Assembly: GCA_024644405.1 (NCBI GenBank)
Contig: JAHELC010000002.1
Coordinates: 62,001 to 126,000, forward strand
DNA from: Nitrospinaceae bacterium
Lineage (GTDB): Bacteria > Nitrospinota > Nitrospinia > Nitrospinales > Nitrospinaceae
Direction: 5' to 3'
DNA: 64,000 nt
In this document: piece by piece, positions 1,919-44,506 of the stretch
Position numbering within the stretch: position 1 is the first letter of the stretch
Layout: each line of letters opens with the position of its first letter
The notes under the pieces: model-generated
The model's input: only the letters and a program-made list of their open reading frames with translations
Told to the model about the DNA's origin: nothing
Database searches by the model: none
Program-made: the position numbers and the translations under genes

Positions 1919-3171
1919 GGAAAATTGTTTTTGTATTGTGCCTTCTTTTTACAACTGCGGTTGAATCCCATGCGAAGGATTGGCGGGACGGCCTGCCGTT
2001 CAATCTGCACGGGTTTGTGGAGGGAGGTTTCGGCATCCGCACGCAGAACGATCCCAACCAGTCCCACGACGTCAATTACGCTGAGCTGAGGCTCCAGTTG
2101 GAAGCCTCGAAGGCTCTGGATTGGGCTGAATTCAAATTTCGTCTCGACCTGTTTCGGGACGAAGCCCTGCACGAATTCAATGCCGATCTGCGGGAAGCCC
2201 ATGTGTTGTTCACGCCCGGAGATTTCGTCGATTTGAAAATCGGCCGTCAAATCCTGACCTGGGGCACCGGTGACCTGGTTTTTTTAAACGATCTGTTTCC
2301 GAAAGATTTTCAATCTTTTTTCATCGGGCGTGAAGAGAGTTACCTGAAGGCCCCTTCGAACTCGGTCAAATCCAGTTTTTATTTTGATTTCTTCAATCTC
2401 GATCTGGTGTGGAATCCGTTGTTCAATTCCGACCGGTTTGTAAACGGCGAACGCCTCTCCTTTTTCAATCCCTTTCTGGGACGCAAAACCGGAGAGCGGG
2501 AGGAGCTGAGCTCGCGCGAACCGGAGGGGATATTAAAAGATTCCGAGATTCATTTGCGTGCGTTTAAAAATGTGAAGGGCTATGAGTTGGCATTGTACGG
2601 TTATTATGGGTTTTTCAAAAATCCGGGGGGCTTCAACCTGGCCGGCGAGGCAACCTTTCCCCGCCTGGCGGTATACGGGGCCAGCGTCCGGGGCAACGTG
2701 ATGAAAGGCATCGGTAACATCGAAATCGCCTATTACGATTCCCTGAAGGATCAGAGCGGCACGAATCCTCTCATCAACAACAGCCAGTTCCGCTTTTTGG
2801 CGGGGTATGCCCAGGAGCTGGCGACAGACTTCAACATTGGTCTCCAGTATTATCTGGAGCACATGATTCACCACGACCGCTTCATGCAAAATTTACCCCC
2901 CGGCGCGTTTGCGCAGGATGAAAACCGCCATACGCTGACCGTACGCCTGACCCAGCTGCTCCTGCAACAGAATCTGAGCCTCTCTTTGTTTACCTTTTAT
3001 GTGCCTTCCGACGGCGATGCCTACCTGAGACCCATCGTCCATTACAAGGTGAGCGATTCCTGGTCGGCCACCGTGGGTGCCAATATTTTCACGGGCGACA
3101 ATCAAACCACCTTCTTCGGCCAGCTGGAGGATAATTCCAACGTGTATGCCCGCGTACGTTACAGCTACTGA
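1906..3171 (+). CDS. Outer-membrane beta-barrel protein (DUF1302/alginate-export-like)
   Basis: A 421-aa protein with a signal peptide (about residues 1-22, ending SHA) followed by alternating strands rich in aromatic residues. It closes with a C-terminal Tyr (RVRYSY), the usual signal for outer-membrane barrel assembly. The segment GRQILTWGTGDLVFLND resembles the conserved GRQ-x-L-x-WG block of DUF1302-type outer-membrane proteins. The ATG lies inside the end of the upstream gene (13-base overlap), implying translational coupling. Together with the exporter and the LolA-like protein it would complete an inner membrane-periplasm-outer membrane path. The barrel prediction is firm; the family name is less certain. 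Confidence 0.78.
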   Translation: MAQVRKIVFVLCLLFTTAVESHAKDWRDGLPFNLHGFVEGGFGIRTQNDPNQSHDVNYAELRLQLEASKALDWAEFKFRLDLFRDEALHEFNADLREAHVLFTPGDFVDLKIGRQILTWGTGDLVFLNDLFPKDFQSFFIGREESYLKAPSNSVKSSFYFDFFNLDLVWNPLFNSDRFVNGERLSFFNPFLGRKTGEREELSSREPEGILKDSEIHLRAFKNVKGYELALYGYYGFFKNPGGFNLAGEATFPRLAVYGASVRGNVMKGIGNIEIAYYDSLKDQSGTNPLINNSQFRFLAGYAQELATDFNIGLQYYLEHMIHHDRFMQNLPPGAFAQDENRHTLTVRLTQLLLQQNLSLSLFTFYVPSDGDAYLRPIVHYKVSDSWSATVGANIFTGDNQTTFFGQLEDNSNVYARVRYSY

Positions 3172-3239
3172 TTTTCTTCCTGTTTTTCACATTTTGCCTT
3201 ATCCTGATAGTTCTGATTCGAAACTAACCTCTACCTTTC

Positions 3240-4745
3240 ATGCCCTTGAAATCACAATACAGCCTTCTCGCACGGATTCTGGTTTACTGCTACGCGATCA
3301 ACGCCTTTTCTTATACCGGCTCTGATTTCGACCTGTGGGGCCATATCAAATTTGGCGAAGATATCTGGCAAGCGGGAGCGGTTCCCCGCACAGATCCCTA
3401 CAACTATGTTTTCCCAAACCACGCATGGTTCAATCATGAATGGTTGACGGAAGTCCTGTTTTTCCTGTTGTATAAAGTTTTTGGATCCACCGGCATCCTG
3501 ATATTCAAACTGGGGCTCGGCCTGACCATTGTGCATTTGCTGTCCCAGTTATATTTTGAGCGCTCCAAGAATATACCCGTGTACTGCCTCTTTTTCGTCT
3601 TGTGGACGCACGTGATCGCCATCGGCTTTGCCAGCCGGCCTCACCTGATGACCTTCCTGTTCCTCACGGTTCTGCTGGTGATTCTGTACCGCTACTCAGA
3701 AGGCAAACGCCGGGCGATCTGGTGGGTGCCCCCCTTGATGGTGCTCTGGGTGAATTGTCACGGCGGCTTTGTGGCAGGATTTGGAATTTTCGTGATGTTT
3801 GTTTTTGTCGAGGCGATCACCCGCATTCGGGAACAGGGTAAACCCGACATCCTTTTGTTTTATTCCCTGGGAGTTTCCTTTCTGGCACTTTTGGTCAATC
3901 CCTACGGCTACCATTTGTTAACCTTTCTCCTGGAAACCATTCCCCGTGAACGGCAGGTGCAGGAGTGGTGGCCCATCCCCCTGTGGAGCACACAGTTTAT
4001 TCATTATAAAATTCTGGTGGTTCTGTTAATCGCCTCCCTGTTTTCGCCGGCGCGCAAGCGGCCCTGGGAGCTGGCGATTATCGCCTTCAGTGTGTTTTAT
4101 GGATTCAAGCACCAGCGACACTCGGTCCTGGCCGTGATCGTCATGCTACCCATGGCGGCCGCCTGCTTCGCCGCACTGATTGATTCCCGGACGGCTTTTC
4201 GCAGCAACCGGACCTGGCCGCGCTGGGTCCATGTGGGAGTTCTGGTCTCCATGGGATTGTTCGCGGGTTTCCAGCTGACTCATAACTTTTTGAAATGGCA
4301 GCGACACGGGTTTCAGATCCACGTCGACCCGGTGACCAACCCGGTATACGCGGTGCGGTTTCTCAACGAGAATGAAATTCAGGGCAACATTCTAACGACT
4401 TCGGATTGGGGGGAATATGTGATATGGAAATCACCGGAGTCGAAGGTAGCCATCGATGGCCGTTTTTGGACGGTGTACCCACCGGACTCCATTATTCAGA
4501 ATATGGTATTTCAAGCGGGCTGGGAGGGATGGCAGTATTACCTGGATCTCTATCCACACGAGATCATTTTAACGATACTGGCAAACCAGGCTTTGGAAAC
4601 CCACGCCGGATGGGTCAAAATTTACCAGGACCATAATTCGCGGATTTTTGTACGCAAGACCGATCCACCCAACGCGGCTCACCAGAAATTTATCGACCGC
4701 ACGTTGCTCTACAACAAACGCCCTCCCTCGCTGGCTTTTCCCTGA
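3240..4745 (+). CDS. Polytopic membrane protein, GT-C glycosyltransferase-like
   Basis: A 501-aa integral membrane protein with about ten hydrophobic helices. A first loop carries acidic residues (SDFDLWGHIKFGEDI), as in GT-C transferases that use lipid-linked sugars and place an Asp in the first periplasmic loop. The C-terminus is a soluble periplasmic segment with a TSDWGEYVIW motif. It starts 68 bases after the barrel gene, on the same strand, and may be cotranscribed with it. It ends 9 bases before the convergent nucleoside phosphorylase stop with no visible terminator. I cannot assign a substrate. It is not clearly one of the named PMT or ArnT groups. Confidence 0.55.
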   Translation: MPLKSQYSLLARILVYCYAINAFSYTGSDFDLWGHIKFGEDIWQAGAVPRTDPYNYVFPNHAWFNHEWLTEVLFFLLYKVFGSTGILIFKLGLGLTIVHLLSQLYFERSKNIPVYCLFFVLWTHVIAIGFASRPHLMTFLFLTVLLVILYRYSEGKRRAIWWVPPLMVLWVNCHGGFVAGFGIFVMFVFVEAITRIREQGKPDILLFYSLGVSFLALLVNPYGYHLLTFLLETIPRERQVQEWWPIPLWSTQFIHYKILVVLLIASLFSPARKRPWELAIIAFSVFYGFKHQRHSVLAVIVMLPMAAACFAALIDSRTAFRSNRTWPRWVHVGVLVSMGLFAGFQLTHNFLKWQRHGFQIHVDPVTNPVYAVRFLNENEIQGNILTTSDWGEYVIWKSPESKVAIDGRFWTVYPPDSIIQNMVFQAGWEGWQYYLDLYPHEIILTILANQALETHAGWVKIYQDHNSRIFVRKTDPPNAAHQKFIDRTLLYNKRPPSLAFP

Positions 4746-4754
4746 TCCAACCGT

Positions 4755-5630
4755 TTACGGCGGGCCGATCCAGGTTCGCCAATCGTCACCAATCATGCCC
4801 TTGTTCCGGTAACGTTGCAGGGCATCCTTGCAGTGACAGTTGCGCTCCAGATCGCTTAACAAGGTCAGGCCTGCGCCAAGAAGGGTGGGGAATTGCAGCA
4901 CGGATTGTTCAACAGCGGATTTCTCCTGATCTGTTTGCATGCCTTCGAATAATTGTCCGGTTTTGAATTCGCGGTCGGTCACTCCCTCCGCGTAATTGGT
5001 CAGATAGCACACCGGCGCATAGCACATCTCCAACTCCCGCGCGAGAAAAGTTTCCGGCACGAGCGTCATACCCACCAGGTCGGCGCCAATGATTCTGAAT
5101 TTTTTGATTTCCGCCGGTGACTCCAGGCGCGGTCCTTCCGTGCACACATACACGCCTTGCTCATGATGGGGAATGCCGGAGTGATGCACCGCATCGTGCA
5201 GGACTTGCCGCACTTCCGGGCAAAACGGATGGCTTTGCCGGATGAAGCCGACGCCGCTGTTTTTAAAAAAGGTGGATTCCCGGCTGCGGGTTTCGTCGAT
5301 GATGTCGTGGGGAACAACCAGATCGCCCGGTTTGAACGCAGTGTTGATGATGCCGGGTCCCGACCAGGAAATAATACGCTCCACTCCACATTCCTTGAGT
5401 GCGTAAATATTGGCGCGGTAATTGACAAAGGGTGCGGTGATCGAATAATCGGTTTCGCCGTGGCGGGACAAAAATAGAAACGCCAGGTCGCCAACCTGAA
5501 ACCGGTGAATGGGAGCGCTGGCTCCGAAGGGAGTTTCGAGGGTCAGGCATTCGGTCTCTTCTCCCAGGCGGTTCTGGGTTAGCAAATGGTAGGCTCCGCT
5601 TCCTCCGATGACGGCCAGACGTTCTTTCAT
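4755..5630 (-). CDS. Purine nucleoside / methylthio-nucleoside phosphorylase (MTAP/MTIP family)
   Basis: A 291-aa enzyme of the PNP/MTAP family, which splits purine nucleosides with phosphate in methylthioadenosine salvage or purine recycling. The N-terminal phosphate loop (AVIGGSGAY), LSRHGE near residue 55, CTEGPRLESPAE near 163-174 and MTLVPE near 188 are all present. At the base-binding site the protein reads TNYAEG (residues 211-216), where adenine-specific MTAPs have TDYDCW. Asn there is associated with 6-oxopurines, so methylthioinosine or inosine/guanosine is a more likely substrate than MTA. The gene follows the gamma carbonic anhydrase by 12 bases, suggesting a two-gene operon. The symbol mtnP is withheld because of the specificity doubt. 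Confidence 0.85.
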   Translation of the reverse strand: MKERLAVIGGSGAYHLLTQNRLGEETECLTLETPFGASAPIHRFQVGDLAFLFLSRHGETDYSITAPFVNYRANIYALKECGVERIISWSGPGIINTAFKPGDLVVPHDIIDETRSRESTFFKNSGVGFIRQSHPFCPEVRQVLHDAVHHSGIPHHEQGVYVCTEGPRLESPAEIKKFRIIGADLVGMTLVPETFLARELEMCYAPVCYLTNYAEGVTDREFKTGQLFEGMQTDQEKSAVEQSVLQFPTLLGAGLTLLSDLERNCHCKDALQRYRNKGMIGDDWRTWIGPP

Positions 5631-5642
5631 AACACGAGGGAG

Positions 5643-6149
5643 TTAATCCAGGTAGGTTTCGATATCGCCGACATAATGCGCGGCGGATTCGCGGATACTT
5701 CGGGCTTCCATTTCAGTGAGCGGCCGTTTGACCCGCGCCGGCGAGCCCAGAACCATACTGCCCGGCGGAATTTTCGTCCCCGGCGTCACCAGGGATCCGG
5801 CGCCCACGATGCAGTTTTCCCCCACTTCGGCGCCATCCATCACCACGGCGCCCATGCCGATCAGACACCGGTTGCCGATGGTGCAGGCGTGCAGGGTGAC
5901 ATTATGTCCAACGGTAACTTCGTCACCGATCATCAGCGGTAACGTCCGGCGGGCAACGTGTAAAACACATCCGTCCTGGATGTTGGTTCGTTTGCCGATA
6001 CGAATGTAATTGACGTCTCCGCGGATCACCGCATTGAACCAGACACTGCTTTCTTCGCCGATGACCACGTCACCGATCACCTGCGCGCTTTCGGTCACCC
6101 AGGCGGAAGAATGAATTTGAGGTGACGTGTCTTTAAATGAATGGATCAT
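5643..6149 (-). CDS. Gamma-class carbonic anhydrase family hexapeptide-repeat protein
   Basis: A 168-aa left-handed beta-helix protein of the YrdA/PaaY/gamma-CA group, full length for the family. Repeating [IV]-G-x-x hexapeptides run from about residue 25 to 145. The three zinc-ligand histidines are kept: H64 (GCVLHVA), H82 (VGHN) and H87 (VTLHAC). The family is trimeric and cytoplasmic; some members hydrate CO2 and others have no known activity. It is the first gene of a probable operon with the phosphorylase downstream and is divergent from the membrane protein at 6338. With the metal ligands intact, an active carbonic anhydrase is plausible but unproven. Confidence 0.88.
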   Translation of the reverse strand: MIHSFKDTSPQIHSSAWVTESAQVIGDVVIGEESSVWFNAVIRGDVNYIRIGKRTNIQDGCVLHVARRTLPLMIGDEVTVGHNVTLHACTIGNRCLIGMGAVVMDGAEVGENCIVGAGSLVTPGTKIPPGSMVLGSPARVKRPLTEMEARSIRESAAHYVGDIETYLD

Positions 6150-37263: not shown

Positions 37264-38340
37264 TCAGGGGGTCAGGACCTTCTGAATATCGGATTCGGCG
37301 ACGCGGTCGACGATTTCCACGGTGCCGATGTCCTTGACTAAAATAAAGCGGATGTTTTTATCGTGCGCTTTCTTGTCCCGGTACATGGTTTCGATGTACT
37401 TCCCGGAAGGAAAGTCGGGCAGGCGCGAGGGCAGGCCGTACCGTTCGACCAGGGCCTCTATTCTGGTCACCGTTTCTTTGGAACATTTACCCAGCTGGCA
37501 GGACAACTTGGCGGCGTAGACCATGCCGATGGCAATGGCTTCGCCATGCTTGAACTGGGAGTAGGCGGTCAACGCTTCGACGGCGTGCCCGATGGTATGT
37601 CCGAAATTCAGGACCATGCGGTAATTGCTTTCCCGTTCGTCGCGCTCTACGACTTTGGCTTTGATGGCGCAGGAAGTTTCGATGATCCTTTCCAGGCATT
37701 GCGTGTCCTGAGCAAGAATTTTTTCGGAGTTCTTCTCAAGAAAAGCGAACAGCTTGGGATCTTCGATGACGCCGTATTTGATGATTTCGGCCATACCCGC
37801 GCGAAATTCATCCGCCGGCAGGGAGCTCAGTGTGTCGAGGTCGATGGCGACCAGCCGGGGCTGATAGAACGCACCGATCAGGTTTTTCCCTCGAGGATGG
37901 TTGACGGCGGTTTTCCCGCCGACACTGCTGTCCACCTGAGACAGCAGTGTCGTGGGAAGCTGGATATAAGGTACCCCTCTCAAGAAAGTCGCTGCGATAA
38001 ACCCGGTCAGATCGCCGATGACTCCACCTCCCAGGGCCACCAGGAGTGTGTTGCGGTCGTATTGGTTTTCGATCAGATGATCGTATACCGTTTGGGCGTC
38101 CTGCAGGGTTTTATGTTTTTCCCCCTCCGGGATTTCTGCACATTTTACGGCCAGCCCTGCGGTTTGGAGTCCTTCGGATACAACTTCTCCGTAAAGTTTT
38201 TTGACGGCGGGATTCGTCACGATCAGGGCCCGGCGGGCCGATGGGAGATGCGAGAGATGATCGCCCAGACGGGGAAGAAGGTTCCGGCCGATCAGGATAT
38301 CGTAACTCCTGTCGGCCAGATCAATCCTCAGTTTCTTCAT
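37264..38340 (-). CDS. aroB: 3-dehydroquinate synthase
   Basis: A 358-aa enzyme of the shikimate pathway that makes 3-dehydroquinate from DAHP, using NAD and zinc. Diagnostic stretches are EIPEGEKHKTL, ALGGGVIGDLTGFIAATFLRG, QVDSSVGGKTAVNH and GHTIGHAVEA, which supplies a zinc His. The length is normal. Its ATG overlaps the pilQ stop by four bases (ATGA), so it is translated with the pilus operon, an arrangement also seen in gamma-proteobacterial pil operons. aroK, which often lies between pilQ and aroB, is missing here. A 198-base gap separates it from the next gene. Confidence 0.96.
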   Translation of the reverse strand: MKKLRIDLADRSYDILIGRNLLPRLGDHLSHLPSARRALIVTNPAVKKLYGEVVSEGLQTAGLAVKCAEIPEGEKHKTLQDAQTVYDHLIENQYDRNTLLVALGGGVIGDLTGFIAATFLRGVPYIQLPTTLLSQVDSSVGGKTAVNHPRGKNLIGAFYQPRLVAIDLDTLSSLPADEFRAGMAEIIKYGVIEDPKLFAFLEKNSEKILAQDTQCLERIIETSCAIKAKVVERDERESNYRMVLNFGHTIGHAVEALTAYSQFKHGEAIAIGMVYAAKLSCQLGKCSKETVTRIEALVERYGLPSRLPDFPSGKYIETMYRDKKAHDKNIRFILVKDIGTVEIVDRVAESDIQKVLTP

Positions 38341-40304
38341 TGGTTGGAGAACGACGATTCACTCCGCACGATGGTCGGAGTAACGAAAATCAGCAGTTCA
38401 GATATATCGTCGGCCTCGGCCCGATTTTTGAACAAGTAACCGATAAAAGGAATATCGGAAAAGAAAGGCACGTTGGTGCGGTTTTCGGACATCGTTTTCT
38501 GATAGAGGCCGCCCAGTACCGTGGTGGCACCGTTGATCACCAGGACTTCCGTAAGGGCTTCTTTGGTGAGGATGGTAGGAACGCCATTCACCGAGTTTCC
38601 GAAATCGGCAGCATTCTGGGTAGCAACAATTTTCATATAGACGTTTTCGTCCGCCGTAATATGAGGCGTGACTTTGAGCTCCAGGTTCGCGTCCACAAAC
38701 TGTATTTGCTGTCCCTGGTTAGCAGAAGATGTTTGGAATGGAATCCGCCGTCCACTCTGGATCTTGGCTTCGATGTTATCCAGAGTCGTAACTTTGGGAG
38801 TCGCAATGGTCCGGGATTTCCCCTGGGATTCCAAAGCTTCCAGTTGGATATCCAGCATATGGTCTCCGCTCAGGGTCGATAACAGGGCGCCGAACTGACC
38901 TGCAGGCTGACTGGGAATGCCCAGGTCTACTGCAAATCCAGGATCCAGCGGAACCAGCGGATTCAATGGAAATCGTGCATTCTGTTGTCGGGTTATGCGG
39001 TCCCCGCCCGTCCGGATCAACGCAGGGAATCCGTCGTTGTTGCCGAAATCCGTTCTTTCCGTAAAGATACCCCATTGAATTCCCAATTCCTGGGCGAAGT
39101 TTCGGGTGACCTCGACGATTTTAGACTCGATCATGACCTGGGGTGTTTTCACATCCAGGGTTTTGATGACTGAAATCATTTCTTCCACTTTTTCAGGGAT
39201 ATCGGTCAGGATCAGGGTATTGGTCCGGGCATCTGCGGTAATATTTCCACGGGGACTCTTCAACCCGGTAAGGTTTGTGACCATTTCAGCAATGACGGCA
39301 TAATTGATGCGAATCATCTCCGTGACCAGGGGTTCCGCCACCTGGGCGGCCAACAGGGTCGCATTCGGTACAATGCGAATGATATTGCCTGTGCAGATCC
39401 TGCCCAGAGCGTTATTATCCAGAATCAGTTCAAAAGCCTTGTTCCATGGAACATCAATGAGGCGAATATTCACCGTTCCTGCAACATCCGGAGAAAGCAC
39501 CAGGTTGAATCCACTGACTTCGGCAATAATCCGGAAAATATTTTTAATATTGGCGTTCTGGAAATCCATTGAGAGGCTGTCTTTAACGCCCCCCAACAGT
39601 TTGAAGCAGGAATCCGTCGTATCTCCCACCTCGGTCTCTTCTCCAGAACTATCCATTTGTCCCATCGGCGCGCTGTCGGCCATGGCGACCTGTTCGGGAG
39701 CTGGTTCGGCTTGTTCTTCCGGAGCCTGTGCTTCCATCGCCGGAACCTCAGTATCTTTCAGGCGAATATCCATCACATAGGAACTGGGGCGGAGAATTTC
39801 ATAAGAGGCAGCCTTAGTGAGTCCAATTTCCAGGCGCAGCACTTTCGCTTCTTCAAAGTACAAGGGTCGAATAGTATTGACCACTCCCTGATTCACTTCC
39901 ATAACCCCGCTCAAGTCACTTTTTTCCATATTGGGGAAATCGAGCACCAGGCGGAGAGGATCGACTAACTTGAAAGCGGTATATTCCAAAGCCTGAGAGG
40001 ATCGTATCTTAATGGAAACTTCGTTGTCTTCCTTTGCCGTTTGCAGATCGACAATTTTCGAAAGCGTTCCGGCTGCGGCATCCCCCGAGGCCTGAGCCAT
40101 CAGCATTCGTTCGGCTTTAGTCCCTTTAGCCGGGCTGATTCGGATCATTTTCTTGGCGACCACCTTTTTGCCGGACACAGATTTCCCAGCTTCCTTGGAG
40201 CCGATTTCTGCCTGGGCATCCGGAGCGAACGAAACAGTCACACCCGCTCCGAGGAATATGGCAATCAAACCAAACATGAATTGATTTTTAATTTTTGTAT
40301 TCAC
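38337..40304 (-). CDS. pilQ: Type IV pilus secretin PilQ
   Basis: A 655-aa outer-membrane secretin through which the pilus leaves the cell. A signal peptide (ends AQA, about 32) is followed by one AMIN domain (about 70-175; VSIKIRSSQALEYTAFKL). An acidic Gln/Glu/Pro linker follows, then an STN/N0 domain (LSMDFQNANIKNIFRIIAEV, about 242-300), one N1 domain and the secretin core with a TPKVTTLDN and VPFFSDIPFIGYLF end. Only one AMIN is clear, where many PilQs have two or three. It follows the PilP fusion gene by 15 bases and is coupled to aroB. Confidence 0.95.
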   Translation of the reverse strand: MNTKIKNQFMFGLIAIFLGAGVTVSFAPDAQAEIGSKEAGKSVSGKKVVAKKMIRISPAKGTKAERMLMAQASGDAAAGTLSKIVDLQTAKEDNEVSIKIRSSQALEYTAFKLVDPLRLVLDFPNMEKSDLSGVMEVNQGVVNTIRPLYFEEAKVLRLEIGLTKAASYEILRPSSYVMDIRLKDTEVPAMEAQAPEEQAEPAPEQVAMADSAPMGQMDSSGEETEVGDTTDSCFKLLGGVKDSLSMDFQNANIKNIFRIIAEVSGFNLVLSPDVAGTVNIRLIDVPWNKAFELILDNNALGRICTGNIIRIVPNATLLAAQVAEPLVTEMIRINYAVIAEMVTNLTGLKSPRGNITADARTNTLILTDIPEKVEEMISVIKTLDVKTPQVMIESKIVEVTRNFAQELGIQWGIFTERTDFGNNDGFPALIRTGGDRITRQQNARFPLNPLVPLDPGFAVDLGIPSQPAGQFGALLSTLSGDHMLDIQLEALESQGKSRTIATPKVTTLDNIEAKIQSGRRIPFQTSSANQGQQIQFVDANLELKVTPHITADENVYMKIVATQNAADFGNSVNGVPTILTKEALTEVLVINGATTVLGGLYQKTMSENRTNVPFFSDIPFIGYLFKNRAEADDISELLIFVTPTIVRSESSFSNQ

Positions 40305-40319
40305 GATACGTCCTCACTC

Positions 40320-41858
40320 CTATTCGTCTGAATGGGGGAATTCAATAAACTCGGTACGGGTAACAATTTTCCCGTCATATTTTCGAAGTTGTTCCAACAC
40401 GACCACTCTTTCTTCATCAATGGATTGAACCACTCCGAAATTAGGCCCGATAAAGGAACCCACTCGGATTGTATGGCCCTTGGTATCCGGTGTTTCGATC
40501 AAACCAATGGTTTCTTTTTCATCCCAAATCACACCGGCAAATGTCAAATCTTTCAGGTTGGATTGCAACGGCGTTTGAATGAGCAGTTCCGTCTCCTCCC
40601 TGGCTTTAGCAATCAACTTTTTATATTGAGCAATTTCTTCCTTCAGCTCGGAAGGTTTCATCTTGTTCAACCCTTCTTTGTTTTTGAACAGGGCTCCGTA
40701 ATATTCAAGATCCGAATACAGCCTGGGGTTGGTTTCTTTGATTCTTCGATACAACTCATAAGGGATGGCGGGCAAACCTCCCACTTCGGCATCAAAAAAC
40801 TTCTTGGTTTCTTCATTCGTATCTTTGGACTTCGGTCCAGCCGGTCCCGTCGGTTTTTCAGGTTTCTCTTCTTCGGGAACGATCAGAGGCGTAAAGGGGT
40901 CACGATCCTCCGTAAACAGATACCGCAGTCCGGGAGCAAAAACCACCCGGGTCGTTTGGATATTCTGGTGCCCCGATTCAATCACTTTCAGAATTCTTTC
41001 CATATGCCTCAGGGCTTTCCGGTTAATGGTGGCGAAACCCGCCATAGTTCCCTCGCGATCCACTTTCCGGAACCATTTTCCCGCAGATGATTCGTAAAAC
41101 TGAATCAGCTTTTTGAGCTCGCGATTCGAAAGAGAACGATAATTGTACATATACCGAAGCAAAATATGCGAGCGAAGCCGTTCCCGCAGATCGGTCCGCA
41201 GACGGTTGATCAGCGTCTCTGCATGAGGTGCATGAAACTCCTTGTTGACCGGATTGGTCAGCTGAAGCAGGGAAGACTCCAGATCAATCACCTCGTCCAC
41301 CAGTCCCATTGCTTTTTCAAGTCGATCCAGCAAGTTGATGCGGCTGTTCTCGGGAGCTTTTGCAATTATTTTTTCAAGGAACTTCTGATAAGTTTTCTGG
41401 CTTATTTTCAGCGATTTGATATTGAGACGAACCACTTTTCGCCCGACAGTTGACCGGAAAAACCGGATACTCCGGGTTATATACACCCCGTTATAATTGC
41501 TTCTGATTTTCTTCAATTTCTGGTTGTAGAAATTATTCGCGCTGAAGGTTCCTTTATAAATATCATGCACCAATTTGATATGCTCAACAGACAACCCCAG
41601 GGAATGAAGTATCCTCGGCCCGACCCAAATGTCCGTCCCTATCTTTTTCTTGGACAGAACCTTTTTTTCCTTGCCAAATCCGCTCACGTTATAAAGCTGT
41701 CGGGACAAGCTTTTTTTGCTTTTCGAGCTGGTTTTAGCCACCGCCTGACCCGCGTTCAGCCAGGGCGTGAATACCCAAACCGCGACCATCAGGACGGCAA
41801 TCAAGCTCTTTTTAATGTTTATTCGCTGATCCAAGAGTTGCATATTCGCTACTTTCAT
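40320..41858 (-). CDS. PilP-type pilus protein fused to an N-terminal DUF2059-like domain
   Basis: A 512-aa protein in the pilP slot between pilO and pilQ. A signal or anchor helix (about 18-35) precedes a helical domain (about 90-295) whose core, LSNRELKKLIQFYESSAGKW (243-262), looks like the DUF2059 motif. A Pro/Glu-rich linker follows RDPFTPLI (319-326), the usual PilP entry motif. Residues 428-508 have the PilP beta fold: LKDLTFAGVIWDE, IRVGSFIGPNFGVVQSI, TRTEFIEF. Ordinary PilP is about 170-180 residues and a lipoprotein; I see no lipobox Cys here. It should link PilNO to PilQ, with the extra domain in the periplasm. Confidence 0.8.
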   Translation of the reverse strand: MKVANMQLLDQRINIKKSLIAVLMVAVWVFTPWLNAGQAVAKTSSKSKKSLSRQLYNVSGFGKEKKVLSKKKIGTDIWVGPRILHSLGLSVEHIKLVHDIYKGTFSANNFYNQKLKKIRSNYNGVYITRSIRFFRSTVGRKVVRLNIKSLKISQKTYQKFLEKIIAKAPENSRINLLDRLEKAMGLVDEVIDLESSLLQLTNPVNKEFHAPHAETLINRLRTDLRERLRSHILLRYMYNYRSLSNRELKKLIQFYESSAGKWFRKVDREGTMAGFATINRKALRHMERILKVIESGHQNIQTTRVVFAPGLRYLFTEDRDPFTPLIVPEEEKPEKPTGPAGPKSKDTNEETKKFFDAEVGGLPAIPYELYRRIKETNPRLYSDLEYYGALFKNKEGLNKMKPSELKEEIAQYKKLIAKAREETELLIQTPLQSNLKDLTFAGVIWDEKETIGLIETPDTKGHTIRVGSFIGPNFGVVQSIDEERVVVLEQLRKYDGKIVTRTEFIEFPHSDE

Positions 41859-41868
41859 ACCTTAAAAG

Positions 41869-42510
41869 TTATTTAACTTTCTCAGAACCTTCGATATACG
41901 CAAAGGTATTGGCTGTAATATTTGTCTGAAGTGCATCGATGCTTTCCTGCTCCTTCTCACCGTCCTCATTGACTACCAGCTTCAAAGCCGGCTTCATATC
42001 CATGTTGAAGTTTTTCACATTGACCACCCGAAGCAGATTCTGCAGTGAATCAAAAAATCCCGCGGTCTGGTAATAGCTGCCGACAATGGTCACCGACACT
42101 GGAATGGATTTATAAAAATCTTTGCTTACGGCCGGCTCCATTTTAAAAGCAACAATATCCACACCCAGGAAATCCCCAATATCCGAAATCTTATGAATCA
42201 GCAATGGAATCTCCTCCGCCAAAGGCAGTTGTCTCTTTTTCTCCCCCAGGGTTCCGAAAAGCGCGGCCACCTGTTTGGTGAAGAGTTCTTTTTTTGCGCC
42301 TTCCGCCAGATACAGTGCAAGTTTTGTTTCTGTTTCCGCCAACCTCTTGTCCAGCTTGGCCTTCTCCTCCGCGTTGGGACTGAATACCAAAAAGTACATT
42401 GCGCCAAAAATGACCAGGAAGAAACCAACAGCCATCCCGATATAATGCGCGGATTTGAAATCGGCAAATGTATCGTAGGGTATTTTGTCAAATATCTTGT
42501 TCAGATTCAT
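41869..42510 (-). CDS. pilO: Type IV pilus inner-membrane protein PilO
   Basis: A 213-aa protein with one N-terminal membrane helix (about 24-46; GMAVGFFLVIFGAMYFLV). A coiled-coil (LDKRLAETETKLALYLAEG) and a ferredoxin-like periplasmic domain ending in VVNVKNFNMDMK follow. PilO pairs with PilN to form the alignment complex that joins PilM in the cytoplasm to PilP and PilQ. Position and topology identify it, since sequence conservation in the family is low. It starts 10 bases after the pilN stop. Confidence 0.88.
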   Translation of the reverse strand: MNLNKIFDKIPYDTFADFKSAHYIGMAVGFFLVIFGAMYFLVFSPNAEEKAKLDKRLAETETKLALYLAEGAKKELFTKQVAALFGTLGEKKRQLPLAEEIPLLIHKISDIGDFLGVDIVAFKMEPAVSKDFYKSIPVSVTIVGSYYQTAGFFDSLQNLLRVVNVKNFNMDMKPALKLVVNEDGEKEQESIDALQTNITANTFAYIEGSEKVK

Positions 42511-42520
42511 GCATCCAGCC

Positions 42521-43186
42521 TCATGCCGCAGGTTTGGTATTCAGAAAATGCAAGTATATTTCAAACTTCTGCACCGGTACGTTTTCCATCCATTCTCTTT
42601 TCGACGTATGGAGCACTATCGCATCAATGTAAGGCAGGGCTCTTAATTGCTCCAGGAAATGAACGATCTGTCGATCATCGATCCCCACACCCTTCAACTC
42701 AATAAATTTATCGTCAGACACTTCCTGTTGATTTTTTTTCCTGCCCCGTTTTTTTTGTTTCGATTTTTCATCATAAGAAATAAAGAGAAACGGGATTTCC
42801 TTCTCCTCAATCTTTTCCAGGTTCATTTGCTCAACCGACGTCATCCAAACGCCTTCAGGAACCGCCTGACCCATATCTTCCAGAAATTCAGTCGTCCGGG
42901 CTTGATTCGATCGTAATTTATCGATTCCCGTTATGATTTTTTGATACTGTTGCTGCTCCTTTTTCAGTTGCTGGACCGCGTTATAGTCCGGAGTTGCAGC
43001 CGCAACCTGGGTCTCGACTTCAGCCAAATTACTTTCTGTATTCCAGATCAGCATTTTTTGGAACATCCAGACCCCGCAACCCAGGAGCAGGGAGATCATG
43101 CCGACTGCCGCCACCATGGTCAGCTGTTTCTGGATTCCGACTTCCCGGATAATTCTCTTATAATCGTATAAATTGATCGTAATCAT
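42521..43186 (-). CDS. pilN: Type IV pilus inner-membrane protein PilN
   Basis: A 221-aa protein. The N-terminus MITINLYDYKR is a variant of the INLLPYR motif with which PilN binds PilM. One membrane helix (about 23-45) and a coiled-coil follow, then a periplasmic domain with a Lys/Arg-rich insert (KSKQKKRGRKKNQQ) at about 140-155. The FIELKGVGIDDRQIVHFLEQL segment is typical of the domain. Its ATG overlaps the pilM stop by four bases. The basic insert is unusual for PilN and could contact peptidoglycan or lipid. Confidence 0.88.
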   Translation of the reverse strand: MITINLYDYKRIIREVGIQKQLTMVAAVGMISLLLGCGVWMFQKMLIWNTESNLAEVETQVAAATPDYNAVQQLKKEQQQYQKIITGIDKLRSNQARTTEFLEDMGQAVPEGVWMTSVEQMNLEKIEEKEIPFLFISYDEKSKQKKRGRKKNQQEVSDDKFIELKGVGIDDRQIVHFLEQLRALPYIDAIVLHTSKREWMENVPVQKFEIYLHFLNTKPAA

Positions 43187-44262
43187 ATATAGTCAAACCT
43201 TCTTGTTGCGAGACCGATGGCCACGGTAGCCATAGGAGCCATTTGACCCAGGCTCTGCGCATCGAATTTTCTTGATCCCAATCGAACTGCTTCCATAGGA
43301 TTAAATATTTCCACCGGCACTCCCAGCCGGTCTGCCAGGAATCCATCCACCCCTGGAATCATCGCCCCACCGCCGCAAAGAAAGGCCTGTTCCACCTGAC
43401 TGTTGGAGGTGGTGCTGAAGAACTCGAATGACTTGTGGAGTTCATCCAGAATGGGCTCGAAGGATTCGATGATCGCTTCAATGATCTCTTCCTTCTCCGC
43501 TCCTTCGGGAATGGCACCGACCTTGATGTTTTCTGACTCACGGTATTCCAATTCATATTTTTCCATCAGTGTGTTGGTACAAGCGTCCTGACCGACAGGA
43601 ATGTCCCGAGTGTAAGAAGTCACACCATCCATCAGAATATTGAGATGGGTGAAAGCTCCTCCCAGATCAATAATGGCCACGGAACCCATATCCTGCAGGT
43701 TTCTGGAGATGTTAATGGCATTCACCATGGCAAAAACATCCAAATCAATAATGACCGGCTTGAGCCCCGCCGCCGTCAACACGTTGGAGCGGCTGTCGAT
43801 AATTTCATTCTGGACCGCGACCAGAAGAATTTCCTGCTTTTCCTCTTCTTCCTCCAGTTCGTGCTCTTCCAGAGTGGGAGTCCCTTCTAAAATCTGAAAG
43901 TCGATTCGAACATCATCGATGTCGAAGGGAATATATTGTTCCGCTTCCTGGGGAATAAATTCCTCCAATTCCTCTTGGTTCATCATAGGAACTTTGATTT
44001 TTTTGATCATCACCGCCTCGCCGGCCACTGAGGCCACCGCGTAGGGCGTATCCATATCCTCCGCTTTGACCAGACGGGCCAAGGCATCGACCACATGATC
44101 CTCGTCCTGCACCACCCCTTCGATGACCGACTCGGATTCCAAAGGCATCACTCCAAAATTCAATAACTCGTATTTGCCCGGAGTTCCCATCAAACGACCC
44201 ACCTTGATGGAATTTGACCCGATATCGACTGCGAGTAGTGGTGTTTTGGCTGAAAGAAACAT
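43183..44262 (-). CDS. pilM: Type IV pilus assembly ATPase-like protein PilM
   Basis: A 359-aa actin-fold protein on the cytoplasmic side of the pilus machine. The ATG at 44262 has AGGAG 7 bases upstream; a TTG one codon earlier is less likely. The nucleotide fold shows LAVDIGSNSIKVGRL at the start, VAIIDLGGAFTHLNIL in the middle and AFLCGGGAMIPGVDGFL near the end. It binds the PilN tail. First gene of pilM-N-O-P-Q-aroB, with 244 bases of upstream sequence to the XRE regulator. Confidence 0.95.
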   Translation of the reverse strand: MFLSAKTPLLAVDIGSNSIKVGRLMGTPGKYELLNFGVMPLESESVIEGVVQDEDHVVDALARLVKAEDMDTPYAVASVAGEAVMIKKIKVPMMNQEELEEFIPQEAEQYIPFDIDDVRIDFQILEGTPTLEEHELEEEEEKQEILLVAVQNEIIDSRSNVLTAAGLKPVIIDLDVFAMVNAINISRNLQDMGSVAIIDLGGAFTHLNILMDGVTSYTRDIPVGQDACTNTLMEKYELEYRESENIKVGAIPEGAEKEEIIEAIIESFEPILDELHKSFEFFSTTSNSQVEQAFLCGGGAMIPGVDGFLADRLGVPVEIFNPMEAVRLGSRKFDAQSLGQMAPMATVAIGLATRRFDYI

Positions 44263-44506
44263 CAATTAACTCCTAAATTCTGCCTTTTAAGTTCGTACTT
44301 TAAATCTGAAACTTCCATTTTTTAATGGCTCCTTTTCAGGATGCCCGCAGTGAACGGTGTTCTTCTGCATAAATAATGGATCTTCACCTACCAAATCTTT
44401 TTTGATCGCCTGGATGCTTTACTGGCCAAGTAAATAATCCACAGGGATCAAGCTGAAGCTGAATGGAATTGACTCCTCCAAGAAAACCCCAAACCGTCGT
44501 ACTTGC

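Follow-up and report, generated by a model that had tools for sequence, protein, structure and literature searches.

The usual picture of PilP is that of a small and conserved protein linking the inner-membrane part of the pilus machine to its secretin part. In Neisseria and Pseudomonas it is a lipoprotein whose N-terminal arm is unstructured (PMC3441751, PMC5805733). This arm binds PilN/PilO in P. aeruginosa (PMC5805733); for Neisseria, binding of the HR domain to the N0 domain of PilQ has been described (PMC3441751). The solved PilPs of P. aeruginosa, N. meningitidis and M. xanthus (2lc4/2y4x, 2ivw and 3jc8 chain Pa) have an HR-type beta fold in common; the chains have 172 residues in M. xanthus and 181 in N. 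meningitidis. A similar secretin-N0-binding HR domain is found in GspC (3oss chain C), which belongs to type II secretion. GspC has a membrane helix, and we know of no DUF2059 part in it. DUF2059 (PF09832) itself is represented by P. aeruginosa PA0856 (2x3o, 3oao), a stand-alone protein to which no function has been assigned. In the open-licence literature, covered mostly by titles and abstracts, we found no description of a DUF2059-PilP fusion. The gonococcal protein TfpC was considered as a link between DUF2059 and pili and discarded, as it belongs to DUF4124 (PMC7593972).

The pil operon and its pilP gene

The window, meaning the whole stretch of 64,000 nucleotides that was analysed, contains the complete gene order pilM-N-O-P-Q-aroB (Table 1). 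The pilP position, which is the one that pilP has in the three species named above, is occupied, as the first-pass annotation had it, by a gene of 512 codons. It has an ATG start and is closely packed between pilO (stop at 41869) and pilQ (start at 40304). Each of the pil neighbours was confidently named by Pfam, and PilM and PilQ by NCBIfam as well. The ORF behind pilQ is one that we take to be aroB from our own reading of the sequence, and aroB lies downstream of pilQ also in the majority of the loci that were read from sister families.

Table 1 Coordinates of the pil genes and PilP domains in the window, and of N0-HR paralogues of PilP in other loci
Feature	Position	Strand	Basis or remark
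pilM	43183..44265	-	Pfam PilM_2, 1.8e-65
pilN	42521..43186	-	Pfam PilN, 2.8e-8
pilO	41869..42510	-	Pfam PilO, 5.3e-23
pilP fusion	40320..41858	-	signal peptide, DUF2059-like units 1 and 2, RDPF, helical insert, HR beta domain
Signal peptide, residues 1-42	41733..41858	-	AxA-type site AVA-KTSS, read from the sequence
DUF2059-like unit 1, residues 44-168	41355..41729	-	all helical; unit 1 of a relative, E 1e-6
DUF2059-like unit 2, residues 169-297	40968..41354	-	all helical, terminal helix of 37 residues; Pfam match
RDPF motif, residues 319-322	40893..40904	-	invariant in 30/30 relatives
Helical insert, residues 345-424	40587..40826	-	length of the RDPF-to-HR gap; helices in the predicted structure
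HR-type beta domain, residues 428-508	40335..40577	-	PilQ-binding by analogy; Pfam PilP, matches to PilP in the PDB
pilQ (secretin)	38337..40304	-	AMIN, N0/STN, Secretin_N and secretin domains; TIGR02515, 6.5e-114
aroB (presumed)	37264..38340	-	downstream of pilQ; named by sequence, matched in outgroup loci
N0-HR PilP paralogue	L036:4832-6478	-	without RDPF
N0-HR PilP paralogue	L037:7963-9549		without RDPF
N0-HR PilP paralogue	L038:7882-9528		without RDPF
N0-HR PilP paralogue	L035:6803-8329		without RDPF
N0-HR PilP paralogue	L039:3282-4709		without RDPF
N0-HR PilP paralogue	L040:3432-4757		without RDPF
N0-HR PilP paralogue	L069:1204-2508		without RDPF
N0-HR PilP paralogue	L070:4688-6133	-	without RDPF

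A separate pilP elsewhere in the genome had been named by the first-pass annotation as a finding that would speak against its claim, and a search of the host genome at E up to 1 found no second, ordinary pilP. Since the genome has this single PilP together with pilus/secretion-type ATPases and platform proteins, the 512-residue protein is the PilP of a seemingly complete type IV pilus system. An assembly fusion of two genes was rejected, because the same architecture is found in some 40 genomes, single-contig ones included; that the protein is an artefact of this kind, or an unrelated protein in the pilP slot, has nothing in its favour and is next to inconceivable, given also its PilP fold, its RDPF motif and its being the sole pilP of the genome.

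Two adjoining long ATPases of the T2SSE family are found in the host genome at G000:C31:100341-104474 (frames of 961 and 985 residues). A third long one is located on contig C3, and one of 564 residues on C27, beside a T2SSF gene.

Domain architecture of the enlarged PilP

The C-terminal part of the protein is recognised as PilP by Pfam (residues 434-504, E 6.2e-12), as it is in all of 30 relatives, and the HR domain matches the PilP structures in the PDB in sequence as well as in fold (best Foldseek E 1e-4), with fold Z-scores of 7.4-9.4 to the solved PilPs, the highest to 3jc8 chain Pa. The RDPF motif stands before the HR domain, within the N-terminal portion that contacts PilN/PilO in the PilP of P. 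aeruginosa, and is also present in the M. xanthus chain. The similarity to the HR domain of GspC is lower (Z 5.7), and the Pfam domain T2SSC, the mark of GspC, was not found in the 512-residue protein and only weakly in 3/30 relatives; the present gene, moreover, is part of a pilus operon. What differs from the solved PilPs, apart from the length, is the absence of a lipid anchor and the presence of a folded tandem DUF2059 module and of a helical insert. The sequence thus identifies the protein as a PilP variant and not as the classical PilP lipoprotein, having the C-terminal Pfam PilP/HR domain, preceded by RDPF, and the position between pilO and pilQ, and lacking the N-terminal lipobox cysteine.

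The first-pass annotation had limited the PilP similarity to C-terminal parts and placed RDPF and the HR domain correctly, and what it overlooked is that some 70 residues between them form a helical insert, which is absent from classical PilP. The gap from RDPF to the HR domain is 94-114 residues long in the order of Nitrospinota to which the host belongs and 91-92 in families f6 and f7; in f8 and f9, where PilP is short, it has 23-37. As the long gap is common to the order and to f6 and f7, the insert probably arose before the DUF2059 module did. In the prediction of the full-length protein (mean pLDDT 72, pTM 0.52) the linkers are of low confidence and the relative orientation of the domains is not fixed.

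The N-terminus is a signal peptide with an AxA pattern that is also present in the closest relatives. There is no cysteine in any of the 512 residues, so the lipobox is certainly missing, as had been noticed at first reading, and the protein cannot be a lipoprotein. The fusion was rejected as the cause of this loss: the short PilPs of most sister families likewise have a plain signal peptide, usually without lipobox, so that in this phylum the lipobox is not strictly diagnostic of PilP.

The DUF2059-like module

The region ahead of RDPF comprises about 250 residues (44-297), all of it helical and made of two tandem DUF2059-like units, where the first-pass annotation had described one such domain of about 200 residues; the DUF2059 similarity itself stood up, and size and number of units had to be corrected. 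Pfam DUF2059 matches residues 241-262 with E 3.8e-6 and 27.3 bits for the whole protein, above the curated cut-off of 23.6, and the motif LSNRELKKLIQFYESSAGKW is located at residues 243-262. The signature hairpin recurs as RSIRFFRSTVGRKVVR at about residues 131-146, in unit 1; this unit is weak on its own here (E 0.096), and the corresponding unit of a relative is recognised well (Table 1). The profiles of both units align over 33 columns (P 0.0008). DUF2059 was recognised in 28/30 relatives at E 0.01 or better (best 1.7e-10), in a set where all 30 have PilP, so the match is not due to chance.

Modelled alone, the module has a predicted pLDDT of 89.7 and a pTM of 0.87, which answers the suggestion made at first reading that this region be modelled. 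The structural comparisons by VIA-align gave, both on unit 2, 6f03 as the first match (Z 5.8, 3.1 A over 97 residues), with PA0856 (2x3o) as the third (Z 4.8, 4.4 A over 98). These values are low for a helical fold, and chance matches between helical bundles reach them too. Comparison of the family profile with the PDB sequences gave 6f03 at E 0.005 and 3oao/2x3o at E 0.034, again weak for a helical fold, and Foldseek gave no match of the module to the PDB under E 0.2, which is not evidence of a new fold. The DUF2059 assignment rests mainly on Pfam. The likeness to PA0856 lies in the shared sequence signature, beside which there is this weak structural match to one unit; the difference is that here two units stand in tandem ahead of PilP.

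The module is less conserved than the HR domain (mean pairwise identity 23-27% versus 46%). It is under purifying selection, with dN/dS of about 0.14-0.19 in two comparisons with this protein and 0.18-0.33 in a third pair. Invariance within it is limited to Gly and Trp; acidic residues, His and Cys are nowhere invariant. This speaks against enzymatic activity and suits a structural role.

The main alternative to a structural ring is that the module fastens PilP to the surface of the inner membrane or to the peptidoglycan in place of the lipid anchor, and we regard it as rather unlikely. The protein has no Cys and an AxA-type signal peptide, and the modules of the host genus are very basic, with a net charge of +16 to +37 (+30 in this protein, mostly in unit 1), which would suit anionic lipids or wall polymers; in addition, the module is linked with an SH3-like envelope domain in one acidobacterial protein (see below). 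However, the charge is not kept across the order, where many members have -2 to +12, and the short PilPs of most sister families lack the lipobox without having any module, so that the loss of the anchor needs no module.

Occurrence of the fusion in Nitrospinota and beyond

The first-pass annotation had suggested looking for the same fusion in relatives, and we indeed found it across the order. Among the 61 genomes surveyed (the own one and relatives) 44 match, and 41 of these have the module, 40 in full and one cut by a contig end (counted from the table). The records from the named collection are Nitrospinota/Nitrospinaceae MAGs, and the scan used a narrower alignment. In the survey of the phylum (77 genomes) the module is absent from the PilPs of those families outside the order that were read. 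The DUF2059-PilP fusion is confirmed as an observation, and its reading as a fusion is supported.

One genus within the order, g9, keeps pilMNOPQ with a short PilP, and its PilPs are nested in the module-bearing clade (94/89 with g8), a position that points to a secondary loss of the module. The PilP of family f3 is also short, and its placement in the tree is unsure. A single clade of all DUF2059 rows without any loss was rejected (p-AU 2.8e-7), since the short PilPs of g9 and the N0 copies described below nest among them. The loss in g9 is also what favours the view of the module as a tolerated passenger that does nothing for the pilus, as the pilMNOPQ set persists there; yet in the order the module is kept at 20-30% identity, at dN/dS of about 0.14-0.33 and with the same two-unit layout, and we consider a passenger quite improbable.

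In g9 (L041 and L064) there is no DUF2059 module; the short PilP of L041 is at 5122-5859 and its pilM at 2700-3836. The PilM of g9 is strongly diverged, with 34-36% identity to the members of the order, which share 48-57% among themselves.

The two-unit module was also found without PilP in two genomes of Acidobacteriota (L055/L072 and L071; E 1.2e-19 and 7e-20), in proteins that match both units of the fusion profile. Although the module is present in this phylum, no DUF2059-PilP fusion was found in 297 Acidobacteriota genomes. The module thus also lives as a separate module of envelope type. The two proteins are encoded at L071:1483-2631 (-) and L055:5800-6591; one has the module behind an SH3-like segment (weak, E 0.083) and the other adjoins a TatC-like ORF. 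The host genome has a stand-alone DUF2059 protein as well (G000:C32:139920-140093, L043:426-1166), about 37 kb from the pil operon. Such stand-alone proteins, the two-unit acidobacterial form (E about 1e-19) and the one of the host, could be taken as a sign that the module is no structural ring but serves to recruit or regulate some other periplasmic protein, such as a factor for PilQ assembly or sensing. Nevertheless, the operon consists of the standard gene set only and no partner gene was found, which makes this reading unlikely.

A possible role in the pilus machine

We are inclined, with a moderate degree of confidence, to see here an enlarged type IVa PilP, particular to the order, in which the module forms an extra collar at the level of PilN/PilO. 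This builds on the operon, the architecture, its conservation, the predicted fold of the module and the single pilP, and takes the contacts with PilNO and PilQ from the literature on relatives; the position of the module, the collar and the lack of an enzymatic role are what we infer. PilP would be secreted without a lipid anchor, its C-terminal HR domain would dock on the N0 domain of PilQ and, by analogy, the RDPF stretch on PilN/PilO. Both contacts are likely to be the same here, since RDPF and the HR domain are both kept. The tandem DUF2059 module would be a non-enzymatic helical domain with one copy per PilP, placed at the level of PilN/PilO because it is joined directly ahead of RDPF, and would act as a folded collar in the lower periplasmic ring, where classical PilP has its disordered N-terminal arm. 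The helical insert may serve as a spacer between the level of PilN/PilO and PilQ.

It follows from the architecture that the periplasmic part of this pilus machine probably differs from the textbook build. The added folded domain exceeds the whole of a classical PilP in size and is kept across most of an order. On this basis the pilus base of Nitrospinota is predicted to show additional density, the function of the PilP arm becomes open to direct tests, and DUF2059 gains a first functional setting. Counting against the collar, g9 runs the machine with a short PilP, so that the module is dispensable at least with a compensating change, PilM being strongly diverged there.

Other versions of PilP in the phylum

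The PilP slot has been rebuilt in other ways by sister families. Family f6 has a PilP of 867-890 residues (L056:5456-8128 (-) and L057:5925-8528 (-)), with DUF3352 recognised N-terminal of PilP in one of the two proteins. Two genomes of f9 (L058:4233-5375 and L061:722-1831) have an unassigned domain, some 200 residues long and with a start resembling a lipobox, in front of PilP, and the remaining members of this family a plain short PilP. In families f2 and f3 there is a second protein, in which the insert and the HR domain stand behind secretin N-domains, either AMIN-N0-N1 or N0-N0 (Table 1). This N0-HR copy is located between pilP and pilQ in g8 and f3, and in g4 pilP and the copy are on different contigs. 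The RDPF motif is missing in all eight copies read, as would suit adaptors that sit on the secretin side only. The N0-HR fusions unite two known binding partners and are in this sense natural evidence for the N0-HR contact.

The tree groups these copies by lineage and not by type, and a single origin was rejected (p-AU 1.3e-4 with all rows, 3.3e-3 without the long f3 row). The phylogeny points firmly to two origins and makes a third likely, the latter being less sure because the placement of f3 joins long branches. Tentatively, and with some doubt, we could regard the HR domain as a fixed plug on which the lineages of Nitrospinota have built differing periplasmic rings, from tandem DUF2059, DUF3352, a lipoprotein-type domain or the secretin domains AMIN/N0/N1. 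The last of these fusions would be convergent, with two origins as a minimum and three as the probable number, and is found on an extra copy of PilP without RDPF. If true, there would be extra domain rings between the inner membrane and the secretin, including an extra N0 ring.

In one of the loci with an N0-HR copy, PilN (L036:8661-9665 (-), 334 residues) is extended N-terminally, before its normal start, by a basic repeat that is doubled (KKFKLPEIKFKKPxWKLPRFGKRKAE).
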